Virus record (IMG/VR): IMGVR_UViG_3300027969_000239
Location: 1-35,776 of that record
Reading direction: 5' to 3' (one strand)
Origin: a virus
Length of the DNA stretch: 35,776 nt
The translations under genes were made by a program, and so were the position numbers. Below are positions 1-30,100 of the stretch, piece after piece (within the stretch, counting starts at the first letter, position 1; each line of letters begins with the position of its first letter). The notes under the pieces were generated by a model. It was not told the origin of the DNA, did no database searches, and worked only from the letters and a program-made list of their open reading frames with translations.

Positions 1-2427
1 CTGAAACCCGCCGGGGTTCATTTTATCAACGCCGGAGAACCCTTCCTCCGTTGTCGAAATAAAACGTTGTTTGATGTAGTCAACTATTGACCTGCGGAGG
101 CCGTTGACAGCGTCAGGGTCCGCCTTGACCTGATTGAAAAGGTTGCGCATCTGCCTTGCAGCGTCAGTTTTTCCGAAGACGGTTCCGACTGTCTTGACCA
201 CATCGGCCTCATTGCCGAGCTTAAGAAGCTGCTTTGTCAAGCCTGTCTGGAAATTGCTGACAGCAGTGCTGGTGTCAGCCGCAGACCTTGCAGCCGTCTC
301 CGTGGCCGTTGAGGCATTCGCGAATTGTCTTTCAAGATCAGGGAACTCGCGCAAGGCGTCCTGATACTTCTTGCGCCACCCCGCAAATTTACGAGGGTCT
401 ATCGTCCCCTGCGCCGTCATCGCCTCGCGCTTTAATGACGAGACAATGTGGTCGCGCATCACGCCTACTGCGGCGGCGTCACTGCCGACAGCGTTCATAT
501 AGCTTTGCATGCCCTCATGCCCAGCCGGGCCGGGCCTGAAGAACTTGTCGCCAACTTGAGAGTCAAGAACCTTGTAGCGGCCCGGCCCCCCGGCAGACGC
601 CAAAGTTGCGCCAGTGGCGCCTTCTTTGAAGGTTTGGGCGTAAGCGGCGTGGCCAAGTTTGGCGGCAGTGATGGCGTCAACATCTTCCTGCGTGATCTTT
701 GTTGGCTGCGCAGGAGGCTTTGCCTTACCGCCTTCTTTCTGCGCGTAGAAGTCCTTCACCCATTGGTCAATGCGGTCAGCAATGCTGCCTCCGGGGGGAG
801 GGTTGCCCGCAGCCACAGCGCGAGCGTCCTGAGCAGCTTGGTTCTCGACGGCGTCATTGATCGATGACGCCACGGCCTTCTTCATCTGAGTGAGGAGATA
901 ATATTCGGGGGTTTCTGTGCCGGTTCTGGCAAGCTCTTCAGACATGGCGGCATTGATGCGCTTGTCGAAGGCGACCAGAGACTTGAAGGGCGTATTGTCT
1001 CCAAGCTTCCCGGCATCGTCATAGATGCCCTTGATCTTGCCTGTCATCGGCTCTGCAAGAGGATCGTAATCAGCGATCACCTTGCGGGCCGCATCGCGGA
1101 TTTGAGAGGAGACAACCTGAACACGGCCCTGCGGATCAACGGCCTCGTAGAGCTTTGTCCGCCAGTCGCGCATCTCTTTCTTGGCTGCATCCAAAAAGTT
1201 GCGCATGGCCGAGCCGGTGGCCTCTGGGGGCTGTTGAGTGCCCAGACTGTCAGCCGCTTGTTGAGCGCCACGCAGATCCTGCTGCGTGATCTGGCGCTCT
1301 TGGTTCTCAAGGTTCTGGAGTTCGCGATCAAGCTTCTGCGAGACGGCGACGGGTGAGCCGGGAGGGGCGGCCTCATCAAGCGCCTCGGCACGAGCCGCAG
1401 CGCGTTCCCCACGTCGCTCCATGAAGGGAGCCGCGTCTTTTGTTTGACGCTCAAGCATGAGCGACCCAAGTTTCTGATCTCCCAGAACCTCGGGCGTCGT
1501 GGGCTTTGATCCGGGCAAGATCTCAAGAGGTTCGTTCTCAAGAATATCTTTCGCCCGCTCCACGCTTGTGACGTTACCGGCGACACGGTTCGCGGCAGCG
1601 CGGCGCTGGCCAGCCACAGTGACGGGATCGAAGAAGTTCTGAACGGCGCTCTTCACGGGAGCGCCAAGGGCTTCCACACCCTTGAGCAGGCCAGAGGTAG
1701 ACAGGCTGCCGCCCATGCCGCCAACCATGCCAGCGATAGGCTTATAGGTGTCAGGAACGGCCTCCATAGCCGCCTCGGCCCCCGCACCGCCACCGGCGCC
1801 GATGGCTGCGTTCTCAAGGACAGGCGCGACAGCTCGCGTAGCCTCCCTGACCGTGCCGCCCGGGCCTGTGGTGGGCGCGCGGCCACCCAAGATCTTGTTC
1901 ATTATCTCTGTTGTCTTTGGGGCAATAGCCTCCATGCCAGCGCGCGTCAGGCCACCGGCCACACCCTGCATACTGAGGGCCTCGCCTGCGCCACGACCGG
2001 CTGCGCGAATATATTTCTCAGCATCGCCAGAGACGGGGATGTTCTCAGGATTGGCGCCGACGAGACCCATGCCTTTCTTGATCGAAGCAGACCCGCCGAA
2101 GGGCGTGTCGCCCATTGGGGCGCCAGCCATGCGCAATGCGCCCGCGACAAGGTCCACAGGCAGGCCGAGGGTGTTTGCCAAACCTTCATTGAAGCCTGCG
2201 GGCAGTTGTGTCGCCTTAGACCAGCCGGTGGACTGGGTGGGCTTCACGCCCTTGCCGACGACCTCCTCAATGCTTTTTGGAGCGGCGGGAGGCTCACCAG
2301 AAGGAGGAGCAACTTCAGCCACAGGCGCCGGGGCTGCGGGCGCAGGGCGGCTCCCGGGCCCAGCGCCTGTTGCGCCGAGGATCTCTTCAATAGATTTGAC
2401 TCTCGGGGTTTCTGCGATCTCGACCAT
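1..2427 (-). CDS. Very large internal-virion-type protein, 3' end outside window (at least 809 aa)
   Basis: An uninterrupted reading frame starts at the ATG at 2427 and stays open to base 1, so the gene is cut by the window edge. The start lies one base beyond the stop of the upstream 1650-residue gene (TGATATG), which suggests translational coupling. The N-terminus is Pro/Ala-rich and holds two copies of a short motif (KSIEEILG, KSIEEVVG). A Gly/Ala-rich, possibly membrane-active stretch follows at about residues 130-250 (GGMGGS, GAGGGAGAEAA). After that comes a long charged helical region, and near the visible end a segment beginning RDHIVSSLKREAM that I associate with giant virion proteins of environmental podoviruses. 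No catalytic motif is seen in the visible part. Length, composition and position after the hub and internal protein suggest a DNA-ejection or internal virion protein; this is inference. That it is coding is very likely. Confidence 0.72.
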   Translation of the reverse strand, partial: MVEIAETPRVKSIEEILGATGAGPGSRPAPAAPAPVAEVAPPSGEPPAAPKSIEEVVGKGVKPTQSTGWSKATQLPAGFNEGLANTLGLPVDLVAGALRMAGAPMGDTPFGGSASIKKGMGLVGANPENIPVSGDAEKYIRAAGRGAGEALSMQGVAGGLTRAGMEAIAPKTTEIMNKILGGRAPTTGPGGTVREATRAVAPVLENAAIGAGGGAGAEAAMEAVPDTYKPIAGMVGGMGGSLSTSGLLKGVEALGAPVKSAVQNFFDPVTVAGQRRAAANRVAGNVTSVERAKDILENEPLEILPGSKPTTPEVLGDQKLGSLMLERQTKDAAPFMERRGERAAARAEALDEAAPPGSPVAVSQKLDRELQNLENQERQITQQDLRGAQQAADSLGTQQPPEATGSAMRNFLDAAKKEMRDWRTKLYEAVDPQGRVQVVSSQIRDAARKVIADYDPLAEPMTGKIKGIYDDAGKLGDNTPFKSLVAFDKRINAAMSEELARTGTETPEYYLLTQMKKAVASSINDAVENQAAQDARAVAAGNPPPGGSIADRIDQWVKDFYAQKEGGKAKPPAQPTKITQEDVDAITAAKLGHAAYAQTFKEGATGATLASAGGPGRYKVLDSQVGDKFFRPGPAGHEGMQSYMNAVGSDAAAVGVMRDHIVSSLKREAMTAQGTIDPRKFAGWRKKYQDALREFPDLERQFANASTATETAARSAADTSTAVSNFQTGLTKQLLKLGNEADVVKTVGTVFGKTDAARQMRNLFNQVKADPDAVNGLRRSIVDYIKQRFISTTEEGFSGVDKMNPGGFQ

Positions 2428-2428
2428 A

Positions 2429-5400
2429 TCACTGCCCCATATGAGTAGAGAACATCTCGTCTCGCGGAATGACGGTTACCTTTTCACCGGGGCCATTATA
2501 GCGCCAGATGTCGCCGGGCTTGATGCCCAAGGCGCCCATCGCCGCCCGAGTGTCGCCATCCAACTCCTTCGGAGTCACATAGGTGGCGCCAGCGGCCAGC
2601 TTGTTGGCGGGCGGGAGTGGCATACCGGCGAAGTTACCCATCTGCCGTTTGGCGCTTTCCATGTACTCAGACAGCGGGTTTGCTTTCGACCATGCCTGAT
2701 AATAGGAAGACATGCTGCGCCAGCCCTCTGCCTTGGCATCAGGCCACGACTCCATAAAGGCACTTGCGCGATTCATAATAGCAAGTCCTTGGGCGACCAT
2801 CTGAAAGTTGGCGCCGGGTAGCTTCGCTGCGTCTGGAACGCCACGATCAAGGAGGGCTGTAAACTCAGATTGCGCAAAACGCGGCGTGGCCGCCTTGAGC
2901 TGTTCAAGGACGAGGCCGGGGACTTCCTTTTGCAGCAACTGAACTGCTTCTGGCTCGCCATCCATGATGCGTTTTGCCAGATCCGGGTAGCCGTAAGATT
3001 TGGCGATTGCCGCGTAATCGGAAAACGTCCCGGCTCCCGGCCCACTTTCAAAAAGCTTGAAGGCATTGGCAATAGAATTATACCGTTGGCTTCCAATTGT
3101 TAGGGACTCAGATTTTCCAAGCATGTCTTCAAAGAAGTCAGCATCTTTGGCAATTTGCTTAACCGCCAGATCGCCAAGCTTTGTCACGCTGGCATTAGCG
3201 GGCAGATTAGGAATGACAGAACCGCCGCCCGCAGGAGGCTTCGGGCGACCGGGGATGACCTTGCCTGTCGGGGGATCAATCTGGACGCGCTCAGGCGCAG
3301 GAGTAGCCGCGCCTTGCTCCGCCTTCGGAGGAGTGGGCGCCACAGCCTTGCCGGTCTCGTCAACCGGCAGTGTGTATTCCGTGCCAGTCTCGGGGTCCAC
3401 ATAGGCGCGGGTGCGCTGCCCAACGCGAGCCTTTGCCTCTTCTTCAAGGCGAACCTGATTTGCTGCGGCTGCGGCTTTTGGATCCGTTATGTCAGAGCCA
3501 AGAACAGCCAGCGCCTTCCCGCGCTCCATCCGCGCAGCGCCAGCAACGGCTTGGGGGGACACCCCAAGCTGCCTGCCAATGTCAGCTAAAATGGGAGCGG
3601 TGAGGCGCGTTACCCCAGCCTCAGCACGAGAAGTTGCTTCCCTTGCCTGCGCGTTGGCAATTTCAAACTCTTTGGCCAAGGTCGCCCGCCTCTCAGGCGT
3701 CATCGGCCCCCTCATTTGCGCCTGCCGTTGATCGGCGATGCGTGATTGAATGCGGGCCTCGTCAAGGTGCGCCTTGACATCGGGCTGAGAGCGAGCCCAA
3801 GCGTCAGCTTTAAGGATTTCGGCCTGCGCATCTTCAGGAATGCGGACGGTGGGCTGCTCGCCTTCCTCCGGCTTTGCTGCGGTGCGCGCAGGCGGCGCAG
3901 GCTGCGTTCCCGCAGCGGGTGCGCCGGGGGTGACCGCAGGGGCCTCAGCAGGAGCGGTTGCGGCGGGCCTTGCCGGGCCACTAACAGGCGGAGCAGCAGC
4001 GGCACGAGGAGTAACGGGCTCGACGCCCTTGTCCACAACATCGCTTGCCAGAGCAACTGTAGGATCACGTTGGGGGGCCTCCCTTGCGGAGGCGGTCGGC
4101 GTTTTTGCAAGGCCAGAGAATCCGGGCATGTTCCGCAGAAAGCCAAAGGCCTCTTGTGGCGTGGCAAACTTGCCCGTCTGGAGGTTCATATAGCTGATGT
4201 TTCCCTCGCCATCCTCGCGCTTTTCAAAGACCTTGTTGAATATATCAAGCGAGTTCTTGGCGATCTCGCTTTGCTGCTTCTGCAAGCCAGTGTACGCGCC
4301 AGTCCCACCCACCAGCCCCGAGCCAATGGCCCCGGCCAGCGTCTTGTTGGGCGAGGCCAGCATTGAGCCGAGGCCCGCCAGCGCGGGCACCCAGAAGTTC
4401 TCGGACGACAGTGTGTCCCTGACGCCCTCGGACGTGATCTCGGGCAGGAAGGACTTGGGAGGGTTAAGGCCGGGCTCACGCGCGCGAGGTGTTGTAGCTA
4501 CAACCGCATTCTCGGGAGTTGGGACAGGCTTCACGGTGCGCGCAATTGGGGCAGTGCGGCCAATGCTCGTCGTCTGGTCGTCGCCGCCTGTAGCAGCCAC
4601 CTCATTACCACCCTCGGCACCCGCAAGGCCGGGCTCTGCCGTGGAATACTCGTCGGGGACAAGGAACCCGCCATCGTCAAAATGCCCGCGCTTGGCGGCG
4701 GCATTAGTCGCCCTGCGGTAGTCCACAGTCTTCATGCCGCCAGCAAGGCCAACGGCCTCGGGTGCGGACTTCTCGACCTTCTGGGCGATGAGGCCCATCT
4801 GGGTCTTGTCATCGCCATTGTACTTGAAGCGGTAGACGGGCTGGCCGTCATAGAGGGTGCCGACCTTCTTGATGTCGTGCTTAACGCGCTCGTCGGACGC
4901 GAGGGGAGCAAAAATAAGGAGTTCAGCGGCAGCAGCAGCCTCCGCAGCGGCAGCGGCAGCGGCGGCGGCTTCGGCTGCGGCAGCAATCTCCGCAGCAGTA
5001 GTGGCAGCGGCAACGCCTTCGGCGGCGGTTGTTCCACCGGCAACGGCCTCGGGAACCGCAGCGGTAAGGGCCTCGGGAATAACGGGGGCAGCCGCCTCGG
5101 GGACAACTCCACCCGCAACGCCCGGCAAAGCCTCGGCGCTCGTGGCGCTCATGGCAGTGTCACCGCCAAGCCCGAGCTTGTCGGCGCCAAACTTGTAGGC
5201 CTTGTTCCCCAAATCATACGCGCTCTTGGCCTTGAGGCCAGTGCTCACGACATCGCCAAGCCCGCCAGACTGCTGCTGGGGCTTCTGGCTGGGCGCCTCT
5301 GGCGCCTTCATCATCTGTGGCTGGGGCTGCTGCTCCTGCTCCTCAAGGACGGGGCCGAGAATGCTATTGCCGCCAAGTCCGCCGTAGGGGTTGATGCCGC

Positions 5401-7381
5401 CACGGCTGTAGTGGTGGCGGTCACCGATCAGGCCGCCACGGGCTTCTTCCGGCACTTCTGGCTTGTCCGCAGCTTTTGCGTCGGATGGGAGCTGATACCC
5501 TTTTTCTCTAGCCCATTCAATGTCGCGCTGTTCCCTTGCTGCGAGGGCATCAGCAGTTTGTTTGCGAGCGGCAATGTCCGCATCACTCCGCAAAAAGTCG
5601 GGGCGGGCCTTGTTGCCCATCTCGACGAGCTTCGCCATGTTCATGGCTGCGGCAACCGCGTCAGGCTGCTGCCGCTGCTGCGGCGCCTGCATCGGGGTGC
5701 CCTGAAGGATCTGGCGCTGGGCAAGGGGCTGCAACTGAGTGCCGTAGACACCGCCCTGCTGCGACTGCTGCGGGCCGTAGTAGGCAAGCGCCGGGTTCAT
5801 GTAGCCGCCATCGGCCAGACCGCCGCGCGCGAAGGAGCCGCCATGCGCAAACGCGCCGCCCTCGGGGCCGACAAGGCCACCGGCGGAAGAATACTGCGGG
5901 CCCGGCGAGGCGTTCTTGTTGAGCCAGTCCTGAAGGGTGCCAATCCGGCTCTGGATGTAGCCGGGGCCAGAGCCAAGGAGGGCGCCATTGGGCCCGGGAG
6001 GCTGGTTTTGCGCACTGAGCAGCGAATCCAGTTCGGCCTGCTTGCCCTCGCGGACGCCGGGAGCAAAGCCCGTAACCGTGGGGGAGCGCATAGCCGCAAG
6101 GCCAGCGCCACTGGCGCCAGCCTCAATCGGGATGTCCCTCCCGCCCATGAACGCCTGCGGCAGGCTGGGCATGGCCCCGAGGCCCTTGCCGGAGTTCTCG
6201 CGCAGCATGGCGCTGGGGGCGCCAATGCTGTAGGCGTCGGTGCCAGACAAGGCCCCGCCGTCCTCCTTGTGGATGGCGCCCTCGGTGGCCTTCTTGTAGT
6301 CCACGGTCTTGTAGCCCTGCGAAGACCCAACCGCCTCGGGATGGTCCTTCTCAACGTCCTGCGCCAAGAGGCCGATCTGGGTGCGCTGGTCGCCCTTGTA
6401 GTTGTAGCGGTAGATCGGCTGGCCGTCGTTGGTTTCGCCAACCTTCTTGATGTTCTCCTTCAGGCGCTCGTCCGAGAAGAACCCGCCGCCTCCAGTGGTG
6501 GTTGAGGTGCCGCTTGTGGCGTTGCCCGACAGCGCACCCGTGCCTGTGGCGATGTTCGCGAGGAACTGCGCCTGCTGGTAGGGGAAGCCCTGCTGCTGCT
6601 GGAACTGATTGTAGAGCGCCTGCAAGCCAGCCTGCTGCGTCTGCTGCTGCTGCTGGCCCGCCGCCAACTGCGCCTGAGCGCCCGCGAGCCCCGCCTGCTG
6701 GGCGTTCGTGCCGATGCTGCCAAAGAGCGTGGCCGCGTTCTGGAGGTTCTGGCGATTGGCCTGCTCGGCCCCAAGACCCACGCCCTGCTGCTGCTGGGCC
6801 GCCGCCAAGGCCTGATTGTAGTTCTGCTGGTACAGGGGCGCGATGGCCTGAGCCTGCGCAAGGCTCTGCTGACCCATCAACTGCGCCCGCTGGAGGCCCG
6901 CTCGCTCGCCGCCAAAGGCGCCGCCACGGATTGCGTCCGCCTGCTGCTGGGATAGCTGCTGCCCCTGCTGCTGGTTCATCGCCGCCTGCGTGGCGTTTAC
7001 GACGCTCTGCGTGAAGGGGTTCATGTACTGGCCGACGTTCAGGGCGCTGGGGTTTACGCTCCCAGTGCTCTGCGCCGCAAGGCCCGTGGCCGCGCCGTAG
7101 TAGGGCTGGGCCGCGCCAGCCATGGCGTTGGTGTTCTGGATGCCAGCCTGCTGCGTCTGCGATAGGGGCGCGACGAAGGCGTTGGGGTCTTGGCTGTAGG
7201 CCTGATAGGGCGCCTGCGCGACGGTCTCGGCGCGAGCGTTGACGGCATTGTATCGCGCCAGAACCTCTGGCGGGATCTGCGTCACATTGTTAGTTGTGGT
7301 CGTGGATCCGCCCTTGCCGCCGCCAAAATACTCAGTGATGACGCCGTGGGGAGGCCGCCTGAAGACAAAAACATTGCTCAT
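2429..7381 (-). CDS. 1650-aa internal virion-type protein with two S74-like intramolecular chaperone/protease domains
   Basis: Residues about 30-300 are Gln/Ala-rich and probably helical. A peptidase S74-like domain follows at about 300-370, starting SDERLK with Ser303 and Lys308, then the conserved stretch QIGLLAQDVEK and the ending KTVDYKKA. A second S74-like domain lies at about 826-897, with SDERVK (Ser829, Lys834), QMGLIAQKVEK and KTVDYRRA, directly after an almost pure alanine/glutamate helix (about 795-822). In the family the Ser and the Lys five residues later form the self-cleavage dyad, and cleavage falls just before the Ser. Both copies keep the dyad. Between and after the domains are Gly-rich, Pro/Ala-rich and helical segments; the last 250 residues look globular. 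S74 domains normally sit at the C-terminus of tail spikes, so two internal copies are odd. Cleavage at both would give pieces of about 302, 526 and 822 residues. The role as an internal or ejected virion protein is inferred from context. Confidence 0.8.
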   Translation of the reverse strand: MSNVFVFRRPPHGVITEYFGGGKGGSTTTTNNVTQIPPEVLARYNAVNARAETVAQAPYQAYSQDPNAFVAPLSQTQQAGIQNTNAMAGAAQPYYGAATGLAAQSTGSVNPSALNVGQYMNPFTQSVVNATQAAMNQQQGQQLSQQQADAIRGGAFGGERAGLQRAQLMGQQSLAQAQAIAPLYQQNYNQALAAAQQQQGVGLGAEQANRQNLQNAATLFGSIGTNAQQAGLAGAQAQLAAGQQQQQTQQAGLQALYNQFQQQQGFPYQQAQFLANIATGTGALSGNATSGTSTTTGGGGFFSDERLKENIKKVGETNDGQPIYRYNYKGDQRTQIGLLAQDVEKDHPEAVGSSQGYKTVDYKKATEGAIHKEDGGALSGTDAYSIGAPSAMLRENSGKGLGAMPSLPQAFMGGRDIPIEAGASGAGLAAMRSPTVTGFAPGVREGKQAELDSLLSAQNQPPGPNGALLGSGPGYIQSRIGTLQDWLNKNASPGPQYSSAGGLVGPEGGAFAHGGSFARGGLADGGYMNPALAYYGPQQSQQGGVYGTQLQPLAQRQILQGTPMQAPQQRQQPDAVAAAMNMAKLVEMGNKARPDFLRSDADIAARKQTADALAAREQRDIEWAREKGYQLPSDAKAADKPEVPEEARGGLIGDRHHYSRGGINPYGGLGGNSILGPVLEEQEQQPQPQMMKAPEAPSQKPQQQSGGLGDVVSTGLKAKSAYDLGNKAYKFGADKLGLGGDTAMSATSAEALPGVAGGVVPEAAAPVIPEALTAAVPEAVAGGTTAAEGVAAATTAAEIAAAAEAAAAAAAAAEAAAAAELLIFAPLASDERVKHDIKKVGTLYDGQPVYRFKYNGDDKTQMGLIAQKVEKSAPEAVGLAGGMKTVDYRRATNAAAKRGHFDDGGFLVPDEYSTAEPGLAGAEGGNEVAATGGDDQTTSIGRTAPIARTVKPVPTPENAVVATTPRAREPGLNPPKSFLPEITSEGVRDTLSSENFWVPALAGLGSMLASPNKTLAGAIGSGLVGGTGAYTGLQKQQSEIAKNSLDIFNKVFEKREDGEGNISYMNLQTGKFATPQEAFGFLRNMPGFSGLAKTPTASAREAPQRDPTVALASDVVDKGVEPVTPRAAAAPPVSGPARPAATAPAEAPAVTPGAPAAGTQPAPPARTAAKPEEGEQPTVRIPEDAQAEILKADAWARSQPDVKAHLDEARIQSRIADQRQAQMRGPMTPERRATLAKEFEIANAQAREATSRAEAGVTRLTAPILADIGRQLGVSPQAVAGAARMERGKALAVLGSDITDPKAAAAANQVRLEEEAKARVGQRTRAYVDPETGTEYTLPVDETGKAVAPTPPKAEQGAATPAPERVQIDPPTGKVIPGRPKPPAGGGSVIPNLPANASVTKLGDLAVKQIAKDADFFEDMLGKSESLTIGSQRYNSIANAFKLFESGPGAGTFSDYAAIAKSYGYPDLAKRIMDGEPEAVQLLQKEVPGLVLEQLKAATPRFAQSEFTALLDRGVPDAAKLPGANFQMVAQGLAIMNRASAFMESWPDAKAEGWRSMSSYYQAWSKANPLSEYMESAKRQMGNFAGMPLPPANKLAAGATYVTPKELDGDTRAAMGALGIKPGDIWRYNGPGEKVTVIPRDEMFSTHMGQ

Positions 7382-7408: not shown

Positions 7409-7900
7409 TTACTCGGCTGCCTGTTTCCAAGTGCCGGTGCGGGTTCCGTAAAGGAAATAGGCCCCAGATGGCGGCCCGAAAATGCGCTCGTACATGCGGA
7501 CCTTGCCTGCCGTCCGCTGGCTGGACATGACACCGATGGTGAGCGGTATTCCAAGTTCATCCGAGACCTGCTTGCTAAATTCGCACAACTTGCGAGCGCG
7601 GCCCCCCTTCGCTGCCCTGAAATCAGGGTGAATGAAGACGGCGCGCTCCTCTAGTATCTCGTCGTCACTATACCACACATGGCAAATTCTCAAAAGAATT
7701 GCCCCTTGCGGTTTCTCGCCGGGTACGCCCACGAAGCCCACGATGCCATTCTCGCGGCTCAGGGCGGGCCAGATCTCGCGCAACAGGCGCTCGTGGTTGG
7801 GTTTTACGAAGCTGTTCTCGTAGCAGCCCTCTATGGCCAGCTCCATCATAACGTCTACGTCTTCAAGATTGCCAACCCATACCTTTAGCTCGTCAGACAT
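7409..7900 (-). CDS. GNAT-family acetyltransferase
   Basis: This 163-residue protein has the layout of a GCN5-related N-acetyltransferase. It has an N-terminal helical part, a central strand with GFVGVPGEKPQGAILL, and then the acceptor/acetyl-CoA region around residues 95-130 (ERAVFIHPDFRAAKGGRARKL). The usual acetyl-CoA loop Q/RxxGxG/A appears here as RAAKGGRARK, a reasonable but not perfect match. A C-terminal strand-helix ends with YERIFGPPSGAYFLYGT. The start is preceded by a G-rich ribosome-binding stretch (GAGGGGG), as in several other genes here. It lies between small structural genes and the large internal protein, so the substrate may be a virion protein or a host factor; the sequence does not say which. 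Confidence 0.7.
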   Translation of the reverse strand: MSDELKVWVGNLEDVDVMMELAIEGCYENSFVKPNHERLLREIWPALSRENGIVGFVGVPGEKPQGAILLRICHVWYSDDEILEERAVFIHPDFRAAKGGRARKLCEFSKQVSDELGIPLTIGVMSSQRTAGKVRMYERIFGPPSGAYFLYGTRTGTWKQAAE

Positions 7901-8466: not shown

Positions 8467-8823
8467 TTACCCCGGAGAATAGGTGACGTTGACGGACTGC
8501 CCTGTTCCCGGCGTAACCACCAAGCCCGCTGAGAAAACCTGCCCCAACTTGACGACGCCAACCGTGGCGGGGATCGCGCAGAGGGCGTTGGCAGCGGCCA
8601 CGGATGCGACTGCGCCGGTGTTGCTGATTGTTCCCGCTGTAGACCCCGCCACGACAACGGAGAAGTTCACGAGATAGCCCTTGCCGACGTAAATCAAAGT
8701 GGCGGCAGTAACCGTAAGAGATGTCTGCGTTCCAAGGGTCCGGGCAGTTGCCTGCGCAAGCCCGTTGATGGCGACGACGCCATTCTTCTGGGTGGTTAAC
8801 AGGTCGTCAATTGATGCAGCCAT
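8467..8823 (-). CDS. Small virion-type protein, unknown function
   Basis: A 118-residue protein rich in Ala, Val, Thr and Gly with alternating hydrophobic residues, suggesting an all-beta fold. It lacks a signal peptide, a membrane segment and any recognisable active site. Its ATG overlaps the stop of the preceding hub gene by one base (TAATG), so translation is probably coupled. It belongs to the tail/hub cluster and is likely a minor structural protein; I do not recognise a named family. Confidence 0.62.
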   Translation of the reverse strand: MAASIDDLLTTQKNGVVAINGLAQATARTLGTQTSLTVTAATLIYVGKGYLVNFSVVVAGSTAGTISNTGAVASVAAANALCAIPATVGVVKLGQVFSAGLVVTPGTGQSVNVTYSPG

Positions 8824-11105
8824 TAGAATTTTCCGTCTTGCTGGATGCGGTAGCGGATATTACCAAGGCGCCAAAAGGACCCGATGTCATTGCTCTCAAT
8901 GCGGATCGCCACCAAGCGGCCACGGAAGCGGGGCGTGATGAACGTCGTCGCCTGCGTCAGCGTATAAGGGCCATAGGCGACAGGCGCCGTGCCGGGATAG
9001 TCCGTGATGTAGAAGGTCAGCAAGACGTTGGCGCCCTGCGTTCCGTCAAAGTAGCCCCACTTCATGTCGGGCCAGACCTGATCAATGAAGCTCTTCACGT
9101 CCGCCTCCGTCAGGGCAAAGTAGCCCGTCTGGAAGTAGGAGTTCATGGCCACGCCGTCGGCGTCCTTGGAAGTCTCGTGCTGGTACAGGTACTGGTTCAG
9201 ACCGGCGCCAATGGGCGGGCCAAGCACAGACTCATTAATCCACGCCGAGCGCGACACATACGGATTGGCGGCAGAGTTGGACCCGTAGTCCCACTGGTCC
9301 AAGTTGATATTATATTTGACGTATCCCTCGTTTTCCCCGCCATTCCCGTAGGTGGGGAAGTACCAAGTGATTTCGCCGAAGCGGGAGTTTGGAGCAATCC
9401 TGATGCGGTCGAGGTTGGTCGTGTCGAGGTCCTGAAAGACAACGTCCCAGATCGGGCAGCGAATCGGCTCGACGCCATTGCCCGCGAGCCGGTAGAATTG
9501 GCTCTGCCCCATCCAGTAGACGACACCATTCATGGACCCGGCGGCCTTGCGCCCTATGAGGCCGCAGCCCGTGCCCAACTCGTTGAATTGGTAGACGTAG
9601 GGCGGCCCAACATACTGCATGGCCCAGATGCCCAAGTCAGTCCACAGGAGGCCCTGCTGCGGCCCCTGAATACACTGAACAAGGCGGGAGCCTTTGGGTA
9701 TGCGGTAGCTGCCCGCCTGATTGGTGAGGCTGGCGGTCCAGTCGTCGTAGTTGTTAACGTCGCACCAGCGGACCAGCAGGGGATCAGAGATCCCCGTAAA
9801 TGTCGAGCCCCACGCAATGATCTGGCGCTGTGGCATGGCGACGAACATGCCCTGATTGACCGTGGGCGCGGCCACAATCACGTTGGCGACCGCCGTGCCC
9901 GTCGTCGGATCCCACGAATAGATCGGCCCGCCCAGCGGGTTGGCGATGAGGATTTGGCCCCAGTTGTCCAATGTCCAGTCGGTGGCGTTGATCGGAACGC
10001 CCCGGTAGCTGGTGGGGACAATGCCACCGTAACCGTAAAATCCGTAGCCTGCCTCGCCATAGCCAGCGCCGGGCGGGTATGTGCCAACGCCGTTGCGGTA
10101 GACGAAGTGAACCTGCCCGCCGTTCATTGAGCCGCTGGTGCTGGATGTCGCGGAATTGGACGCCGCAATGACGAAGACGTTGCCGCTGGTCACGCTGATG
10201 ACGGCGTAGTTGCCGTATATGGTGACGCCGCCGACTGTCGTCGCGACCAGTGCCGTGAACGTGTCCCCGGCCAGATACCCGTGATTGTTCAGGGTGACTG
10301 AGACTGAGTTGACGCCATTGGCCGTGGTGAATGACGGCACGGCCCCGCCGTTGGCGACAGTCGATGTCGCGGCGGTGGCCGCGTAAATTGTGTATTGGTT
10401 GGCGTTCAGGGTCGGATTAGACACCTGATATTGCCCGAACAGGACAATGCCGCCGACGCTGACTTGTGTCTGTATATCAACAGCATAGTAGTCGTTGGTA
10501 TTGCTGGCCGTGTCCACGATGACGACGGCAGTGCTGCCGGACGTGGTGCTGAAATTGACGGCCTCGTTGGCCGTTATCTGCTCGGGCGTAATGTCTTGGC
10601 TGCCGCCTGACACAATGACGCCGAGGGAGTTGCCCGCGCCGGTGATCGTGCCGCCGGAGACGTAGGCGGTCGTCGTGGCGTTGGCGTATGAGACGCTGGT
10701 TGATGTGGCAGCCGTGACCACATAGGTCCCGTTGTAGCCGTTCGGGTTTATGCTGCCGACGAGAATGGCGGAATTGACTGTGAAGACAAACGGGCCGGTG
10801 AAGGTCAGGGTTGCCGTCGTCCCATTTCCGCTGGCGCCGGTCACAACAATTGGCGCAAGTCCGTCGGCGCCGACAGCCAAATAGGAGTTGGCGTTGGTGT
10901 CTTCCCACGCCCACAAGCACCGGACAGTGGAGCCGATCTGGCCCGCGTAGAACTTTGTCCAGCCGCCCAGCTTCTGCACCAAGCCACCAAGCGTCCGGTC
11001 GGGAATGAACCGGATGAGCTGGCTCTGCGAGATGGCGGCCTCGTTGAGGGCGGGTGTCTTGTTGACATCCACGCCGGGCATAAGTTTGAGCGCGCTGTGG
11101 GGCAT
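8823..11105 (-). CDS. Large tail hub / DNA-stabilisation (P22 gp10-like) protein with inserted beta domains
   Basis: The 760-residue protein starts with a segment typical of head-closure or hub proteins (ALKLMPGVDVNKTPALNEA, then LGGWTKFY). Its C-terminal two-thirds carry repeated Trp/Tyr/Gly-rich blades (WDPTTGTAVANVIV, LLVRWCDVNNYDDWT, GVVYWMGQSQFYRL, YVKYNINLDQWDYG) that suggest a beta-propeller-like fold. P22 gp10, which plugs the portal channel, is about 470 residues; much of the excess here is a Thr/Ser/Val/Gly-rich block at about residues 85-320. That block holds a domain (about 88-155) clearly related to one in the adaptor gene just upstream. It follows the adaptor stop by three bases and is preceded by GAGGGGG. 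Assignment to the gp10/hub group rests on pattern and context; the order with an adaptor upstream supports it. Confidence 0.65.
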   Translation of the reverse strand: MPHSALKLMPGVDVNKTPALNEAAISQSQLIRFIPDRTLGGLVQKLGGWTKFYAGQIGSTVRCLWAWEDTNANSYLAVGADGLAPIVVTGASGNGTTATLTFTGPFVFTVNSAILVGSINPNGYNGTYVVTAATSTSVSYANATTTAYVSGGTITGAGNSLGVIVSGGSQDITPEQITANEAVNFSTTSGSTAVVIVDTASNTNDYYAVDIQTQVSVGGIVLFGQYQVSNPTLNANQYTIYAATAATSTVANGGAVPSFTTANGVNSVSVTLNNHGYLAGDTFTALVATTVGGVTIYGNYAVISVTSGNVFVIAASNSATSSTSGSMNGGQVHFVYRNGVGTYPPGAGYGEAGYGFYGYGGIVPTSYRGVPINATDWTLDNWGQILIANPLGGPIYSWDPTTGTAVANVIVAAPTVNQGMFVAMPQRQIIAWGSTFTGISDPLLVRWCDVNNYDDWTASLTNQAGSYRIPKGSRLVQCIQGPQQGLLWTDLGIWAMQYVGPPYVYQFNELGTGCGLIGRKAAGSMNGVVYWMGQSQFYRLAGNGVEPIRCPIWDVVFQDLDTTNLDRIRIAPNSRFGEITWYFPTYGNGGENEGYVKYNINLDQWDYGSNSAANPYVSRSAWINESVLGPPIGAGLNQYLYQHETSKDADGVAMNSYFQTGYFALTEADVKSFIDQVWPDMKWGYFDGTQGANVLLTFYITDYPGTAPVAYGPYTLTQATTFITPRFRGRLVAIRIESNDIGSFWRLGNIRYRIQQDGKF

Positions 11106-13651: not shown

Positions 13652-13881
13652 TTGTCTGCCTTCCCATCAAGCTTGTCATAGATCCGCTGGAACATCGTTT
13701 CGATGTGGTCCATCCGCTTGTCTATGTCGATCTTGCTGACATATGACTTAGGCAGATCTACCTCCAATTCATGAAGGTCTTTTCGCAGTTCTTTGACAGC
13801 GCCCCATATTTCGCGGGCGAACCATCCGCCTGCTCCAATAGCAGCTACGCTTACAATGTTCATGACTGACTGCGTGTCCAT
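13648..13881 (-). CDS. Small membrane-anchored coiled-coil protein
   Basis: A 77-residue protein: hydrophobic N-terminal helix at about residues 5-28 (VMNIVSVAAIGAGGWFAREI) followed by a heptad-like charged region to the end (LRKDLHELEVDLPKSYVSK). Small proteins of this shape recur next to lysis genes in podoviruses; their role is not established. The ATG overlaps the stop of the glycosyltransferase gene by one base (TAATG), and the 3' end overlaps the next gene by four. Confidence 0.66.
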   Translation of the reverse strand: MDTQSVMNIVSVAAIGAGGWFAREIWGAVKELRKDLHELEVDLPKSYVSKIDIDKRMDHIETMFQRIYDKLDGKADK

Positions 13882-14966
13882 TATGCGGCCTCTTCTTGCG
13901 TGTCACCGAGATAATAACCAAAATTAGATCGCAAGCGGTCATCATGTGGAGCCAATTCTACTGCAATTTTCCCCTGCTTAACAGCCGTGTCCTTTAGACC
14001 AAGGTTCCACGCCGAGATGGCCGCAAGGTCATGCGGTTGATACCCCCATACCTCGGGGTCGCAGGTGTAAACGGCCTCGCGGTTGGTGATTTTCAGCGCC
14101 CGAGTGGAGTAGGCGAAGCATTCCTCCCAGCGGTGCTGGCGGTAGCAGAGGAGCGCCAACTCGCACCAAGGCTCTCGGGTGTTTGGCGCCTCAGACGCGG
14201 CCATCTGGAAGGCCTTCTCGGCCTCTTCGACAATGCCAAGTTCGTTATAACTCCGACCCATGACGCGGTAGGCGTAGCACCGTTCATTCTGCCAAGTGGC
14301 ACGAGGCAGAGCCAGATAACTGCGGCAGGCGTCAACCGCTTCTTGCCACCGCGAGTTAAAACTCAATTCGCGGGCGTAGTAGAAGGCGTTGCGCGGGCAG
14401 GCCGGGTCTTCTTTTACGGAAAGCTCCAGAAGATCCATGTACTGGCCCCGGCTCTTGGTCGGGTCTGGCTTGTGGACGGCGATGAGGAAGTCGGTCTGCG
14501 CCCAGACTTCCGCAATGCGTCCGTCAGGTACAGGATATTCGTGGCAGGGGTGGTGCCAGTGGTATCCGTGTCTGGCGTGGATTTTCTCGTAGTAGAACGC
14601 GATGCCCGCGCCCCAATCAAACATGTAACGGAGGCGGGTGGTCTCTCCCTTGATCCAGACACGTTCAATCTCCTCACGCCAGCCGGGTTGCAGAACCTCG
14701 TCAATGTCTAGGCTGATGCATACGTCAATATCGCGAGGAACAAGGGCAAGAGCAGCATTGCGAGCATGATCAAACCGCCAAGGAGTGATGCAAATGTGAT
14801 GAACAGTCGCCCCATATTTTGCCGCCTCTTCTGGAAGCCCGTCGTCTGATCCCGTGTCGGCAATCAAAATCATGTCTGCGTCAGCCGCAGATTCGCAAAA
14901 CCGCTGCACGAAGTGCGCCTCGTTCTTGCTGATGGCGTAGACGCATATCCTCAACTTCTTCTCCAT
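13881..14966 (-). CDS. Family 2-type glycosyltransferase with C-terminal TPR-like repeats
   Basis: Residues 1-130 form a GT-A nucleotide-sugar domain: ICVYAISKNEAHFVQRF at the N-terminus, then ILIADTGSDDGLPEEAAKYG, WRFDHARNAAL and the metal-binding region CISLDIDEVLQPGW, where Asp-x-Asp is expected. Residues about 190-345 are paired helices of the tetratricopeptide type (FYYARELSFNSRWQEAVDAC, YNELGIVEEAEKAFQMAA, LCYRQHRWEECFAYSTRAL). This matches small bacterial and phage GT2-TPR proteins that transfer a sugar to a protein or peptide; the acceptor cannot be read from sequence. It starts 22 bases after the collagen-like fibre stop, preceded by GAGGGGG, and runs into the lysis genes. The fibre is the obvious candidate acceptor, as an inference. 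Confidence 0.85.
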   Translation of the reverse strand: MEKKLRICVYAISKNEAHFVQRFCESAADADMILIADTGSDDGLPEEAAKYGATVHHICITPWRFDHARNAALALVPRDIDVCISLDIDEVLQPGWREEIERVWIKGETTRLRYMFDWGAGIAFYYEKIHARHGYHWHHPCHEYPVPDGRIAEVWAQTDFLIAVHKPDPTKSRGQYMDLLELSVKEDPACPRNAFYYARELSFNSRWQEAVDACRSYLALPRATWQNERCYAYRVMGRSYNELGIVEEAEKAFQMAASEAPNTREPWCELALLCYRQHRWEECFAYSTRALKITNREAVYTCDPEVWGYQPHDLAAISAWNLGLKDTAVKQGKIAVELAPHDDRLRSNFGYYLGDTQEEAA

Positions 14967-14988: not shown

Positions 14989-16821
14989 CTAGATAACAGT
15001 CCAAGTGCTCCCTGACGGCACAGTGACCGTCGCGCCAGAATTGATCGTCACCGGCCCGGCAGTCATGGCGTTGTAGCTGGTGGTGACGGTGTAGTTGGCC
15101 GTGATCGTCTGCTGGTTCTCGTAGAAGATTTGGTCAGGCGACCCGCCAGTCGGGTAAATCGAGCCTGTCGGCCCGGTGGCGCCCGTGGGTCCAGTCGGGC
15201 CTGTCCCGCTGGGGCCTGTGGGGCCGGTGGCGCCAACATTCCCCGTGACGGTGATGTTCCACGAGGTGTAGGTGCCCGATCCGCCCGTGGCGTCTGATGT
15301 CATGACCAGCGTGGTGCCGCTGAAGGATGTAATGATGCCCTCGACGTAGTTCGTGGGCGTGATGGTGTAGGCGATGCGGACCCGGTTGCCGACAGTGATG
15401 GCAGTTGCGGTGTCCGCCAGATTGGTCGTGAACGTGAGCGACCCGGTGCCGATCAGCGTCGATGTGCTGCTGGTCAAACCGGCGTAGCCTATGCCCGTGG
15501 GGCCGGTCGGCCCAGTGGCCCCCGCGCCCCCGGCGGTTCCGGTCGGGCCCGTGGCTCCATTTGCGCCCGCGCTTCCGGCGGCTCCCGTAGGCCCCGTGGG
15601 GCCCGCAACAGTCGATGCCGCTCCGGTCGGGCCGGTCGCACCGTTTGCGCCCGCGCCGCCCGTGGGGCCGGTCGGGCCCGCCACAGTTGACGCCGCTCCG
15701 GTGGGCCCGGTTGGCCCCGTCCCGCTGGGGCCTGTGGGCCCGGCGATAGTGGATGCGGCTCCAGTCGGGCCGGTCGGCCCGGCGGGCCCGGTTGGGCCGC
15801 TAATGCCATTCACAAGCGCCAAGAACAACGCGGCCCCGTTAGCAAAGCCTGTGGTTCCGGCGCCGCCAGATGCGTTAAGGGTGACGGGATAAGTCCAGTA
15901 TGAGTTGGCTGCGCCCGGGTTCACATTGGTGGGTGCGCCAGAGATCGTCCACGTCTGGTAGCTGCTGCTGCTAGTCTGGCTCTGGATGATGATCTGTTCG
16001 CCGACGCTTAGGAGCGCCAAGAAAATGTCCACGTCTACATTGTTGTCAGTCAGGTGACTGACATTAAGCTGCGTGGCGCTTGTCTGGACGGCATTGTTCC
16101 AGATAATGTCGCCGTCGCCGGGGTAGCCGGATATGGCGCCCGTGTTGGCAAGATAAAGGAACAGATTGGATGACGTGCCCGGCGTCCCAGTGGGGCCGGT
16201 TGGGCCTGTAATGCTCGCGCCCGTGGGTCCGGTGGGGCCGCCGACTCCCGTGGGTCCGGCAACAGTTGACGCGGCCCCCGTAGGCCCAGTGGGCCCCGTA
16301 CCGCTCGGCCCAGTTGGCCCAGCAACAGTAGACGCCGCCCCCGTAGGCCCCGTTGGGCCGCCAACGCCCTGCGTCCCGGCAGCCCCCGTGGGCCCCGTGG
16401 CGCCAAACCCCGTGGGCCCCGTGCTGCCCGTGGGGCCAATATCTCCGTTTATGCCCGTGGCCCCCGTGGGGCCCGACACGCCCGTGGGGCCGATAGTCCC
16501 CTGCGGGCCCGTGGGCCCAGCAACTGTCGATGCAGCGCCCGTCGGGCCAGTTACACCTTGGCTGCCCGTTGGCCCCGTGCTGCCGGTGGGCCCGGTGACA
16601 TTGGACGCTGCGCCCGTGGGGCCGGTATTGCCGGTGCTTCCGGTCGGGCCGGTCGGCCCAGTGGGTCCAACCGTTCCCTGCCCTCCCGTGGGGCCGGGAT
16701 AGAGGCCAGCAATTTGCAATGCGGTAGTGCGCTTGGACGTTCCCGCCTGAACAATCTCAAGCTGCTCCGCACCCGTAAGGGCGGTTGCCGCAGGAAGATT
16801 GGGGATTTGGGAATTTGCCAT
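14989..16821 (-). CDS. Collagen-like tail fibre
   Basis: The 610-residue protein begins with a short attachment-like module ([20 protein letters not shown]). Three Gly-X-Y tracts dominated by GPTG follow: about residues 43-215, 335-440 and 520-545. Within them the unit [12 protein letters not shown] or a close variant occurs seven times and breaks the triplet phase. Two beta-type domains separate the tracts (about 215-335 and 440-520). The end ([30 protein letters not shown]) is a common phage fibre C-terminus that probably trimerises. Collagen-like tracts form rigid triple helices, so this should be a trimeric host-contact fibre. The DNA is correspondingly repetitive, which makes recombination and assembly errors possible. 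Confidence 0.88.
15480..16700. repeat. Repetitive DNA encoding collagen-like GPTG tracts
   Basis: Two long blocks (about 15490-15800 and 16190-16690) are built from GGCCC/GGGCC-rich 9- and 18-base units encoding Gly-X-Y triplets. A longer unit encoding [11 protein letters not shown] is repeated. Extremely GC-rich; the open frames on the plus strand here (VGPVGPV) are only the mirror of this repeat. Confidence 0.85.
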
Positions 16822-20405: not shown

Positions 20406-21065
20406 CTATTCGCCAGCGGAGTGCTTCCTGATGTAGTCGGCGCCCGCAAGCAAAACTTCAATGTTGTCCCTCGCCTGACCCAACATGCTATTGCAAGAAT
20501 AGCACAAAAGCTCACGCACGGAACCAGTCTTGTGGCAGTGATCGACGGCGAGAACGCGAACATTCCCGTGGCGATCTTTGTCCTTTTCCGGCAACTTGCA
20601 GATCCCGCACTTGCCATCTTGGACACGGTACATCTCGGCGTAGTCGTTCAACGAAAGCCCGTAATAACGCTTGAGGCCATAGTGCCTCTGCTTTTCACGA
20701 GACATTTTGCTGCTAACGCGGCCATCAGGACCTATTGTTCTGGTTGTTGAGTCCGACAACCTCAAATTTGAAACTTTGAGGTTGGTCGTGTCACCATCCA
20801 CGAACATCACAGACCGATCAGGCCACACGCCGTAATGCAACATCCACGCAACTCTTGAGGCAACCATTTCCCGGTCTTTATAACGGATATAAAGGTAGGA
20901 CTTGGTCTGCCCCGTGGTGCGGTGGCGGGTACTTTTTACAGTTCCCGCCGCCACGCCTTTTTTGATGCTCTTCGAAACATCCTTTTTCCAAATAAAAGCG
21001 CCGGTTTCTGGGTCGTAGGCGATAGCCTCAGATACTTCGTCGTAACTCAGTTCTTGCAGTTTCAT
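20406..21065 (-). CDS. Homing-type endonuclease: degenerate HNH module fused to endonuclease VII domain
   Basis: Residues about 1-100 resemble the N-terminal HNH module of the other endonuclease here (YDPETGAFIWKKD, YLYIRYKDREMVASRVAWML, NLKVSNLRLSD). However, the His of HRLAW is Ser (SRVAW) and the catalytic HIDGD is FVDGD, so this module has probably lost cleavage. The C-terminal part is a recombination endonuclease VII domain: CGIC, then VLAVDHCHKTGSVRELLCYSC, with both zinc CxxC pairs and the Asp-His intact. The ATG at 21065 is chosen for AAAGGAGG five bases upstream. A promoter-like TTGACT-17-TACTTT precedes it. Base composition is more A+T-rich than the neighbours. It lies between the coat gene and the next structural gene, a usual place for free-standing mobile endonucleases. 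Confidence 0.86.
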   Translation of the reverse strand: MKLQELSYDEVSEAIAYDPETGAFIWKKDVSKSIKKGVAAGTVKSTRHRTTGQTKSYLYIRYKDREMVASRVAWMLHYGVWPDRSVMFVDGDTTNLKVSNLRLSDSTTRTIGPDGRVSSKMSREKQRHYGLKRYYGLSLNDYAEMYRVQDGKCGICKLPEKDKDRHGNVRVLAVDHCHKTGSVRELLCYSCNSMLGQARDNIEVLLAGADYIRKHSAGE

Positions 21066-21090
21066 GTTGTCCTCCTTTAAAGACATTCTG

Positions 21091-21119
21091 AAAGTACCCA
21101 GAAGCTTATTGAAAGTCAA
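21091..21119 (-). promoter_or_regulatory. Possible promoter of the HNH/endonuclease VII gene
   Basis: On the minus strand TTGACT (21119-21114) and TACTTT (21096-21091) are separated by 17 bases, about 25 bases before the ATG. The -35 box is good, the -10 weak. A private promoter would fit a mobile endonuclease. Confidence 0.35.
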
Positions 21120-21163
21120 CATGAAACTTGTATCGTCTGTTTTATCCCAGAAAACCAGTGATT

Positions 21164-22869: not shown

Positions 22870-23376
22870 ATGCCGGTAAAGATAAACGACCTTCCTAATA
22901 AAGATGTTGTAGACAAATATGTAACGTACTGCCCCAAAACAGGAGTATTTACGTCGAACATATTTCATCAATATTGTAAAGTCGGACAAGTTGTCGGGCT
23001 TAAAGATAGAAATTATATTAGAATTTACATAGAGAAAAAATATTATGCCGCACATAGACTTGCTTGGCTTTTGATTAATGGTGAAATAAACCCTAATCAT
23101 CAAATTGATCACATTGATGGAGATAAATCAAATAATAGGATTTTTAATCTTAGGTTGGCGACACATGCCGATAATTGCAGAAACATTGGATTACCTAAAC
23201 ATAACAAAAGCGGCGTCAAAGGAGTTCATTTTTATAAACAAAAAGAAAAATGGCGGGCTCAAATAAAATTAAATGGAAAACGACATTGGTTAGGTGATTT
23301 TGAAAAGATTGAAGACGCAAAATTTGCTTATGACAATGCTTCCAAAACATTTCATGGGGAATTTCGCAGGGAATAA
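22870..23376 (+). CDS. HNH homing endonuclease with AP2 DNA-binding domain
   Basis: This is the only plus-strand gene. Its 168-residue product has an HNH domain at about residues 55-105 (AAHRLAWLLINGEINPNHQI, then DHIDGDKSNNRIFNLRLATH) with the catalytic His residues and Asn present. An AP2-type DNA-binding domain follows at about 112-165 (KSGVKGVHFYKQKEKWRAQI, GDFEKIEDAKFAYDNASK). Such proteins are free-standing homing endonucleases that spread their own gene. The coding sequence is A+T-rich (18 G/C in 60 bases at 23101-23160), unlike its surroundings, which marks recent transfer. AGGGA lies nine bases before the ATG. The gene ends just before the terminator of the convergent scaffold operon. 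Confidence 0.93.
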   Translation: MPVKINDLPNKDVVDKYVTYCPKTGVFTSNIFHQYCKVGQVVGLKDRNYIRIYIEKKYYAAHRLAWLLINGEINPNHQIDHIDGDKSNNRIFNLRLATHADNCRNIGLPKHNKSGVKGVHFYKQKEKWRAQIKLNGKRHWLGDFEKIEDAKFAYDNASKTFHGEFRRE

Positions 23377-27132: not shown

Positions 27133-30100
27133 TCAAGCTTGCTGGGATACTAACATAAGCGCGCGATCCACGACAGAGCCGCCGTCTGTGGGCTTTTCAC
27201 AGCCGCATGAAGCATCCTTAACTGCGCCGCCGGAAGCGTAGTCGCGAGGGTTCCTCAACTTGGTCATCCATTGGTCCATAATTTCTTGCGGCATCTCGTT
27301 CTCGACCGCCATCTTTTGGAAGTCTTCCATTGAGTATAGGCCGGGTTCTATCTCTTTGGCGAAACCCGGCAAACGCTGGCCCGGTTTAACTTCGTAAAGC
27401 CCCGTGTTGTGGAGGTCTTCAATGACGTTCCAATCTTTAGATTTGATAAAATCTTGAACAAAAGGAAGATATTCATCTTTTGGAGCCAAATTGCCTTTGC
27501 CCTTAACCTGAACAATGTTTTCAGCTTTCATTTTGTTGTAAATATCAGGCCGGTTTTCTTGAAGCCATTTGTAGGAGTTTATATGGCCGCCCTCATTAAC
27601 CATTTTCTCCCAAAGACCCGGCTCAATTTTATTGATTGCGTTACCAAAGCCAGCAAGGTGGCGGCTAGGCTCAGTCTCAATCGTCACATGCGGGCGACCT
27701 TTTGAGTCACGCAAGGAGAAGATGCGCGACTCACCAGCAGCCACGTTGTCGCAATAGCCGCCAACGCAATGACCCATCATGTCGCCTTCATACTTCAAGG
27801 CAGCTTTGAGTGCGGGGCTAACTTTGGCTTGATCGCCAATAACGCCTTGCAGGGCGTTATATGGCGTATCTCCAGCTTCCAAGTAACGCTGATAAAGATT
27901 CTTTTCAAACGGATTAAGAGATTGCAGAACCTCTTCGCTCACCGTAGTTGGGGGCTTAAGTTCAACCCACTTGTAACCCTTGTCTGGATATTCTTTGACG
28001 AGGTGCGTTGCTTCATTGTTTGCATTCACGGCAAGAGCATTAGCCGCCGCTTCTTCGCGCCATTTATTGATCTTTGACACCAGTTCGACCGCCTGTGGCA
28101 TCGACACTTTGTCAAGTTTGTCAGGGGTCATACGCAAATGAGTTGGCAAGTCGCTGTCAGGGCGAACAGTGTTCTTCAGTTCATCAACAAGATGATCAAA
28201 GCCAAGATCGTTGGTTATTTGCCTGCTGGCGTTTGCTTCATACACTGTTGTCTCAGGCAAAACTTTTTCAAGCCAAGGGTTTTTTTCATACACTTCTTGT
28301 GCTCCAGCCCACGGGATACCTTGATCGTAATCAAAGTAGTTTTTGGCAGGGCCGCCTACGATGCTACGATCAGAAACATCTTCCCAAGCTCTAGCTGTAT
28401 TAGACTGAGCAAGCCGGGTTTGACCGGGCCTATCCTTATATGTTGGAAACATAAGTTCTGGTTTAATATGAAGAATATCCCGTTCAGCCAACGGGCGTAT
28501 TGGGTCTTCAGGTGTTCCCATTTCATTTTTGATGTACTTGTTGAGCTTCTTATCAATCCAGTTATTTATTGGATCATCGACTGCTATGTTTGCGGCAGGC
28601 AAGTCTGCGGGTTCTTGAAGAGCCCGTGCAAGATCGCGGTTCTTTAGTCCTTCAGTTTCGGCCTCAACACTACCTTTGATCCAATTCCCACCCTTTGGCT
28701 TTACGGCCATGCCAAGCATAGTCTCGCCTGATTGCACAGCAGGGCCAACTGCGTGACTTAACGCAAAACCGCCAGTCACTGGCATCATAGAAGCATTGAA
28801 TGCGCGGCCCATTCCTTCGTCTGTCTGAAAATAGTTGGGTGGCAGTTGGCCTTGATATGCCTGATTGGCAAGATCAAATGGATCTTTAATGCTGTGGGCA
28901 ATAGCGCCCGGTGCATTGTAGAGGGCCTCACCAAGCTTCTCGGGATACGTCTGCACAAATTTGCTGGCTTCTGGACCAAACGCTTCCTCGGGTGGCGTCC
29001 AAGCGCGTGCCAGCGAGGCGGGCGTCACCGGCTGGCGGCGAGCAATAGTAACCGCAGCGTCTTCAGGGGTTGGCGTTTCTGGCATCTCCGGCGCCCGCCC
29101 CACCGCCTTGCCGTCAGCGTGATGCTCGCGCACGACGTGGAGCGCGTCATCGACGAGGCCGCCCTCAGCCCTGCTCAGGTTATGAAACCGCGTCTCGCCA
29201 ATGTCCACGCCGCCGGTGCGGCCCCACTTGGGGGGACGACGACCCATCGCAGCCTGCGCCTTGGGCGCCCAGAAGTTGGTGGCGCCCTTGGTTATGTCCT
29301 CGGCGCCCAGCGCCGCGTCAAGCGCCGTCTGGCCGAGGCCGTAGCGGCGGCTCTCAGGCGTGAAACGCATGGGGTAGTTGGCGCCGTTGGGGTTGCTCCA
29401 CGGCTCGAACTGCTTGCGCGCAAACAGCACGGCCTCAGGCGTTGCGCCGTACTTGCCGGACTGGATGCGGTTGAGGATGACATGGGCGATGGCCTGCGAC
29501 TCTTCGGGGCTCTTGCCGCTCGTCTCCGCCGCAATGGTGCGGATGATCAGATCGCGCTGGCGGTCGTTCAGGTCGGGGCCCTGCGGGGCGCGGGCCGTCA
29601 GCTTGCCGGTCGCCTGATTAATCGCCGCAGCGGCGGGGGCCGCTGGCGCCTCGGGGCTGTAGGCGATGGGCCGAACGGTGGGGCGCTCTTCCCTTGGCAT
29701 GCCCTGATTGATCATCATTGGCCCGGCGGCGCGGTTGAGGCGCAGGGCCTCCTCGACGGGGATGCTGTCAAACATGGCGCGGTTGTGGGCCGCGAGGATC
29801 TCACCAGCCTTGTCGTATTCATTGCCGGAAAAGATCCCAGCGTTCTGAAACTTCTCAACGGCGGCGAGGGCGTCGGCGGCGCTGGGGATTGCTTCTGGCT
29901 GCGCAGGCGCAAGGTTCCGCGCCAGTGAGACGGCGCGGGCAACCTCGGCCCTTGGCTCAGGCCGGAACATCATGGACTGGCGCACGTCATCGACAGACAT
30001 TGGGTTACCAATGCCCTCATTAAAATCTTCTGGAACAATCCCTGCGTAAGTTTGAATATCATTTCCAGACGATGGCCAAAGCGCCCCTGCATTTCCAATG

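Follow-up and report, generated by a model that had tools for sequence, protein, structure and literature searches.

MyRF, a membrane-tethered transcription factor, carries a single internal S74 domain that cuts the chain before a serine, S587, with a lysine, K592, acting as the base (PMC8326128, PMC3828593). The coiled coil of MyRF drives trimerisation, and either of the substitutions L692A and R695A stops the cutting (PMC8326128). The S74 domain of endoNF is also cut before its serine, S911, with K916 as the base. In the endosialidase, the GA-1 neck appendage and the fibres, the domain (CIMCD/ICA) is single and is located at the C-terminus of a fibre-like protein. The ejection proteins of phage P22, gp7, gp20 and gp16, are made separately and have 229, 471 and 609 amino acids, respectively, and S74 is not mentioned in their description (PMC8954989). 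The phiGT1 paper reports only weak similarity to P22 ejection proteins. A C-terminal S74 domain in single genes had been recorded by those who deposited phiGT1 and AH02. The S74 domain, its Ser/Lys chemistry, the cutting of an internal S74 in MyRF and the database naming of fused proteins, which UniProt automatically calls 'intramolecular chaperone auto-processing', are already known. In open papers, we found no description of S74 capping podoviral ejection proteins, of tandem internal S74 domains, or of a form lacking the coiled coil.

Here, we analysed a contig from a virus, 35,776 bases long and hereafter referred to as the window, in which a single open frame of 1650 codons with an ATG start encodes a protein of 1650 amino acids and 171.4 kDa (Table 1). 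Judged by its family matches, by a gene order like that of P22 and by the homology of its C-terminal part, this is an ejection protein and not a fibre, and it contains two internal S74 domains.

Table 1 Features of the fused ejection gene and of its neighbours in the window.
Feature	Positions	Strand	Basis
Acetyltransferase-like gene, P22 gp14-like position, upstream	7409..7900	-	PF13508 (0.013), phrog_1249 (7e-4)
Fused ejection protein	2429..7381	-	ORF; phrog_4287 and phrog_6121 matches; fused homologues of 1173-1786 aa
N-terminal helical domain, residues 38-278, P22 gp7-position moiety	6548..7270	-	AlphaFold2 helices and phrog_4287
S74-1, residues 303-366, Ser303/Lys308, predicted scissile bond Phe302-Ser303	6284..6475	-	Pfam, AlphaFold2, dyad conservation
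Gly/Gln-rich linker, residues 367-780	5042..6283	-	No Pfam match
Ala-rich stretch ending hydrophobic, residues 781-828, abutting S74-2 on its N-terminal side	4898..5041	-	Alignment
S74-2, residues 829-892, Ser829/Lys834, predicted scissile bond Ala828-Ser829	4706..4897	-	Pfam, AlphaFold2
Hydrophobic Gly-rich element, residues 960-1045	4247..4504	-	Conserved in 99 family proteins
C-terminal domain, residues 1405-1625, P22 gp20-position moiety	2507..3169	-	Profile of last 520 residues
Large downstream gene, P22 gp16 position, running off the window	1..2427	-	Position alone

The segment of residues 24-365 corresponds to nearly the whole of phrog_4287, annotated as 'DNA ejection protein' (1.2e-20), and residues 782-895 match the C-terminal end of phrog_6121, a 'virion structural protein'. 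In the gene neighbourhood, the acetyltransferase-like gene also precedes the homologous gene in five relatives (L016, L018, L127, L128 and L138), and the P22-like order, with this gene upstream and a large gene downstream, is shared with L016, L018 and L138. The downstream gene itself had no family match in Pfam or PHROGs, and its counterparts in L001 and L008 are 83-88% identical to it. Farther upstream of the ejection genes, a gp10-like stabilisation protein is placed at 8823-11105 by synteny with MW202675, and portal and terminase are found by PHROGs. On these matches the order is that of podoviral ejection genes, as in P22 gp7, gp20 and gp16, whose inferred role the window protein would share; it would then be carried inside the head and leave together with the DNA. 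The identification in the original prediction of an internal, ejection-type protein is thus borne out by the phrog_4287 match, the P22-like order and the homology of the C-terminal part to PAE2_14, and identity as a tail fibre or spike was ruled out by the gene neighbourhood and the family matches.

Both S74 domains are matched by Pfam PF13884 (Peptidase_S74; 6e-19, 68.5 bits combined), and the single domains score 41.9 and 38.8 bits against a curated cut-off of 22. No further S74 was found in the window. The domains start with SDERLK (residues 303-308) and SDERVK (residues 829-834), sharing Ser-Asp-x-x-x-Lys with the endosialidase, GA-1 and fibre domains, and each continues with GLLAQ or GLIAQ and then with VDY near the domain end. 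In the comparison of L001 and L008, dN/dS is 0 and 0.02 for the two domains and 0.24-0.32 for the linkers. The motifs are not due to chance, because homologues hold both domains under purifying selection; the Pfam scores and the conservation of the dyad equally exclude a chance motif. The description of the two domains as complete holds in part. Both are real and above the Pfam cut-off, but they are complete for the 58-residue Pfam model alone; compared with the ICA domain of fibres (114-130 residues), the second half, which forms the C-terminal coiled coil, is absent.

The AlphaFold2 model of residues 1-390, built with 50 sequences, has long helices in the N domain (38-55, 75-104, 122-152, 159-197 and 205-278), predicted at moderate confidence. 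S74-1 is predicted as a block of pLDDT 87-96 over residues 301-370, with a flexible segment [279-299] before it and disorder from residue 375 onward. The model of S74-2 is weaker, with pLDDT of about 57-76, and has the same order of elements. In both models VDY is followed by a short helix alone, without a C-terminal triple coiled coil. Foldseek found no match to either model in the PDB at E 0.001. With the structural aligner VIA, MyRF (7dc3) was the one S74 structure listed, as a weak match (Z 4.2, 62 residues, 23% identity), and profiles matched S74 to GA-1 (3gud) and MyRF (7dc3). Among the viral predicted structures are two homologues (1487 and 1329 amino acids) that already bear the name 'Intramolecular chaperone auto-processing domain containing protein'. 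Between S74-1 and S74-2, the Pfam search detected no known domain in the linker.

In other phages, an S74 protein is encoded by a separate gene at a similar place (RHph_N2, EBPR podovirus 2, PAE2, Mwe-JY13, Sulfitobacter pCB2047-C, phiGT1, AH02, Mx8, phiM5, Vibrio 199E37-1 and GAP52). Members of this group, including phiGT1_17, RHph_N2, PAE2_13, AH02_11, phiM5_27, Mx8 p54 and GAP52, have the same short S74 as the window protein and a similar neighbourhood, with an acetyltransferase or gp10-like gene before and usually an injection protein after; the following gene in AH02 is annotated as 'P22-like injection translocase'. They differ from the window protein in being mostly separate genes, of 272-480 codons as open frames, with a single C-terminal S74 and no fusion to the ejection protein that follows. 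Such stand-alone proteins usually have 270-470 amino acids, their S74 ends 0-12 residues short of the stop, and the distance from the serine to the C-terminus is 62-83 residues in 26 loci of the stand-alone type. By comparison, fibre-type S74 domains of related phages are longer, with 101-109 amino acids after the serine and a coiled-coil-like end. Of the 16 named phages searched, 15 have no S74 other than that of the gp7-position protein; ppBeUSDA76-2 (L017) differs in carrying an additional fibre-like S74 protein (3517-4725, 402 amino acids) with a coiled-coil-like end, which contrasts within one genome with the short ejection-type domain. PhiM5_27, a distant S74 relative, is annotated as detected in particles; the annotation gives neither size nor termini. 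The premise of the original prediction, that S74 is normally a single C-terminal domain of spikes and fibres, omits these podoviral ejection proteins, from whose C-terminal S74 the internal copies most likely derive.

On sequence grounds, the window protein is a fusion of the ejection proteins of the gp7 and gp20 positions into one chain. Separate genes are matched by a profile built on the final 520 residues of fused family members, and the window protein therefore joins proteins that are made separately elsewhere. These genes are L021 (CV-1-33; E 3e-13), adjoining a gene for the N domain; PAE2_14 (E 2e-6), directly after the S74 gene of PAE2; and L134 (E 4e-4), after a structural gene of MW202489. 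The homology rests on the profile, because tblastn with the C-terminal 253 residues matched no phage record. S74-1 follows the helical N domain; S74-2 lies past the hydrophobic segment, on the N-terminal side of the gp20-like moiety. Peptidoglycan hydrolases can be found after S74-1, between the fused parts, in L016 (SLT), L013 (Hydrolase_2) and L143 (Phage_lysozyme2). The gene of L021, which has no S74, ends in a hydrophobic Gly-rich stretch, close to the end expected for a stand-alone protein after cutting. The sequences of relatives diverge just past the element of residues 960-1045, a possible membrane segment and exchange point. As this divergence begins at about residue 1040, a recombination boundary exactly at S74-2 was ruled out. 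The element resembles by eye a stand-alone gp20-like start, but its profile gave no convincing match and this assignment was rejected.

Fused proteins are common, with 582 and 385 confirmed relatives in two scans whose sets are not mutually exclusive. Among 134 distinct homologues that have the N domain, 80 have one S74 copy, 42 have two and 12 have none, and the corresponding counts for 94 complete fused homologues are 48, 39 and 7, in a sample that is skewed to close relatives and whose first scan used a query that included S74. One or two internal S74 domains are the norm in this protein family and not peculiar to this contig. The seven complete fused homologues without S74 include L012, L143, L182, L199 and L204; in L012 the N domain passes straight into a Gly-rich linker at the site of S74-1. 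Another relative, L026, with 86-98% identity to the window protein per 50-residue block over the first 300 residues, precisely lacks S74-2, the gap lying after the hydrophobic segment and before the Asp-Gly-Gly that comes next. In all 168 distinct S74 domains (about 75 effective), Ser1, Asp2, Lys6 and Gly35 are invariant, and Arg4 varies. Five decayed copies of S74-1, scoring 17-31 bits, retain the Phe-Phe-Ser-Asp start and the lysine. Among the homologues checked, we found no S74 without the Ser/Lys pair; where the pair is gone, the entire domain is gone. The residue before the serine is Phe in 96 of 111 first internal copies and mostly hydrophobic elsewhere. The 20 residues upstream have a mean hydropathy of 1.2 in second internal copies and 0.9 in stand-alone C-terminal ones; first internal copies (-0.07) lack this hydrophobic segment. 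The second S74 of L089 (residues 821-881, 46 bits) is degenerate: its Ala-Gln motif is lost, but Ser, Asp, Arg and Lys are still there.

We propose, tentatively, that one phage gene gives rise to several ejection proteins, as a polyprotein that splits itself twice by S74 domains lacking a coiled coil, with assembly of the ejection proteins as the trigger. Each S74 domain would fold after its upstream part has assembled, and its serine would attack the preceding bond with the lysine as base, cutting Phe302-Ser303 and Ala828-Ser829. The fragment lengths given in the original prediction, 302, 526 and 822 amino acids, are correct and have computed masses of 31.3, 53.6 and 86.5 kDa; the products would be virion proteins of 31, 54 and 87 kDa, of which the latter two would carry an N-terminal S74. 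Because the S74 coiled coil is missing, oligomerisation would have to be supplied by the ejection proteins themselves. This polyprotein reading is partly supported. It needs the modules flanking S74 to exist as separate genes elsewhere, which the sequence comparisons support, and the retention of the dyad, together with the correspondence of fused and separate proteins, favours cutting. Retention of Ser, Asp and Lys in 168 domains and in five decayed ones makes cutting plausible; these residues could also be structural, as the Asp and a Gly are equally invariant. MyRF offers a precedent for the cutting of an internal S74 (PMC8326128), with a serine and lysine five residues apart and a downstream fragment that begins with the S74, as predicted here, and the well-folded prediction of S74-1 may be counted on the same side. 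So may the Phe before the serine in most first internal copies, the stand-alone proteins that stop soon after S74 and the end of the L021 gene; the absence of a hydrophobic segment before first internal copies speaks against cutting. The chief difficulty, by analogy, is that MyRF cutting needs a C-terminal coiled coil that the short S74 does not have, so that either the ejection proteins bring the domains together or there would be no cutting. Cutting by S74 is furthermore not obligatory in the family, since fused homologues without S74 and L026 without S74-2 exist; in these the modules either can remain in one chain or are separated in another way. On balance, cutting at one site or more is about as likely as not, and cutting at both appears doubtful.

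The absence of the coiled coil and the existence of fused homologues without S74 would suit a rather unlikely alternative, in which the S74 domains are uncut caps for folding or assembly that shield hydrophobic ejection segments or aid oligomerisation before packaging into the head. S74-2 and the stand-alone domains do follow a hydrophobic stretch likely to benefit from capping; however, the complete retention of Ser and Lys, decayed copies included, exceeds what a cap should need, and no relic without the pair was found. The original prediction also suggested that the domains are kept as clamps for trimerisation, a view weakened by the lack of the coiled coil that trimerises. Quite improbable in our estimate is a variant of the cutting proposal in which one cut alone takes place: S74-2 would restore the two-protein state and S74-1 would be inert or a chaperone, or the reverse. 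S74-2 shares the upstream hydrophobic segment with the stand-alone form, and in proteins with two S74 domains the last one is nearer the gp20-side element (median of 198 residues, compared with 500 in proteins with one), but both domains of every such protein keep the Ser/Lys pair, and S74-1 is the copy that is nearly always present and best folded. The copy number of zero to two among relatives, the clean loss or gain of S74-2 in L026 and a tree of S74 copies that mixes first and second ones (16 changes, poorly resolved with 64 columns) could also indicate a recombination module of phage structural genes, inserted twice and with little function left. Against the low dN/dS of both copies relative to the linkers in L001/L008 and the invariant dyad, this reading is very improbable.

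With these results the range of S74 extends beyond fibres, to proteins that deliver the genome in many podoviruses, and there it is the sole S74 of most genomes searched. The relatives constitute natural experiments, having zero, one or two copies, fused or separate genes and no coiled coil, and such variants bear on whether S74 can cut without trimerisation by a coiled coil of its own, as well as on the solubility and maturation of ejection proteins. If the polyprotein reading is true, the locus would encode a self-processing polyprotein in a tailed phage, with an unusually small self-cutting module.

Elsewhere in the window, 27133-30591 (-) encodes a protein of 1152 amino acids in which a Cell Wall Hydrolase domain (PF07486) is joined to a PcfJ-like segment (PF14284). 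At 14989-16821 (-) there is a 610-residue protein with collagen-like Gly-Pro-Thr repeats (PF01391), probably a fibre, in which S74 was not found. By eye, 20406-21122 (-) and 22870-23376 (+) look like HNH-type homing endonucleases, one of them antisense to structural genes, and an ORF amid the structural genes at 13881-14966 (-) resembles a glycosyltransferase.
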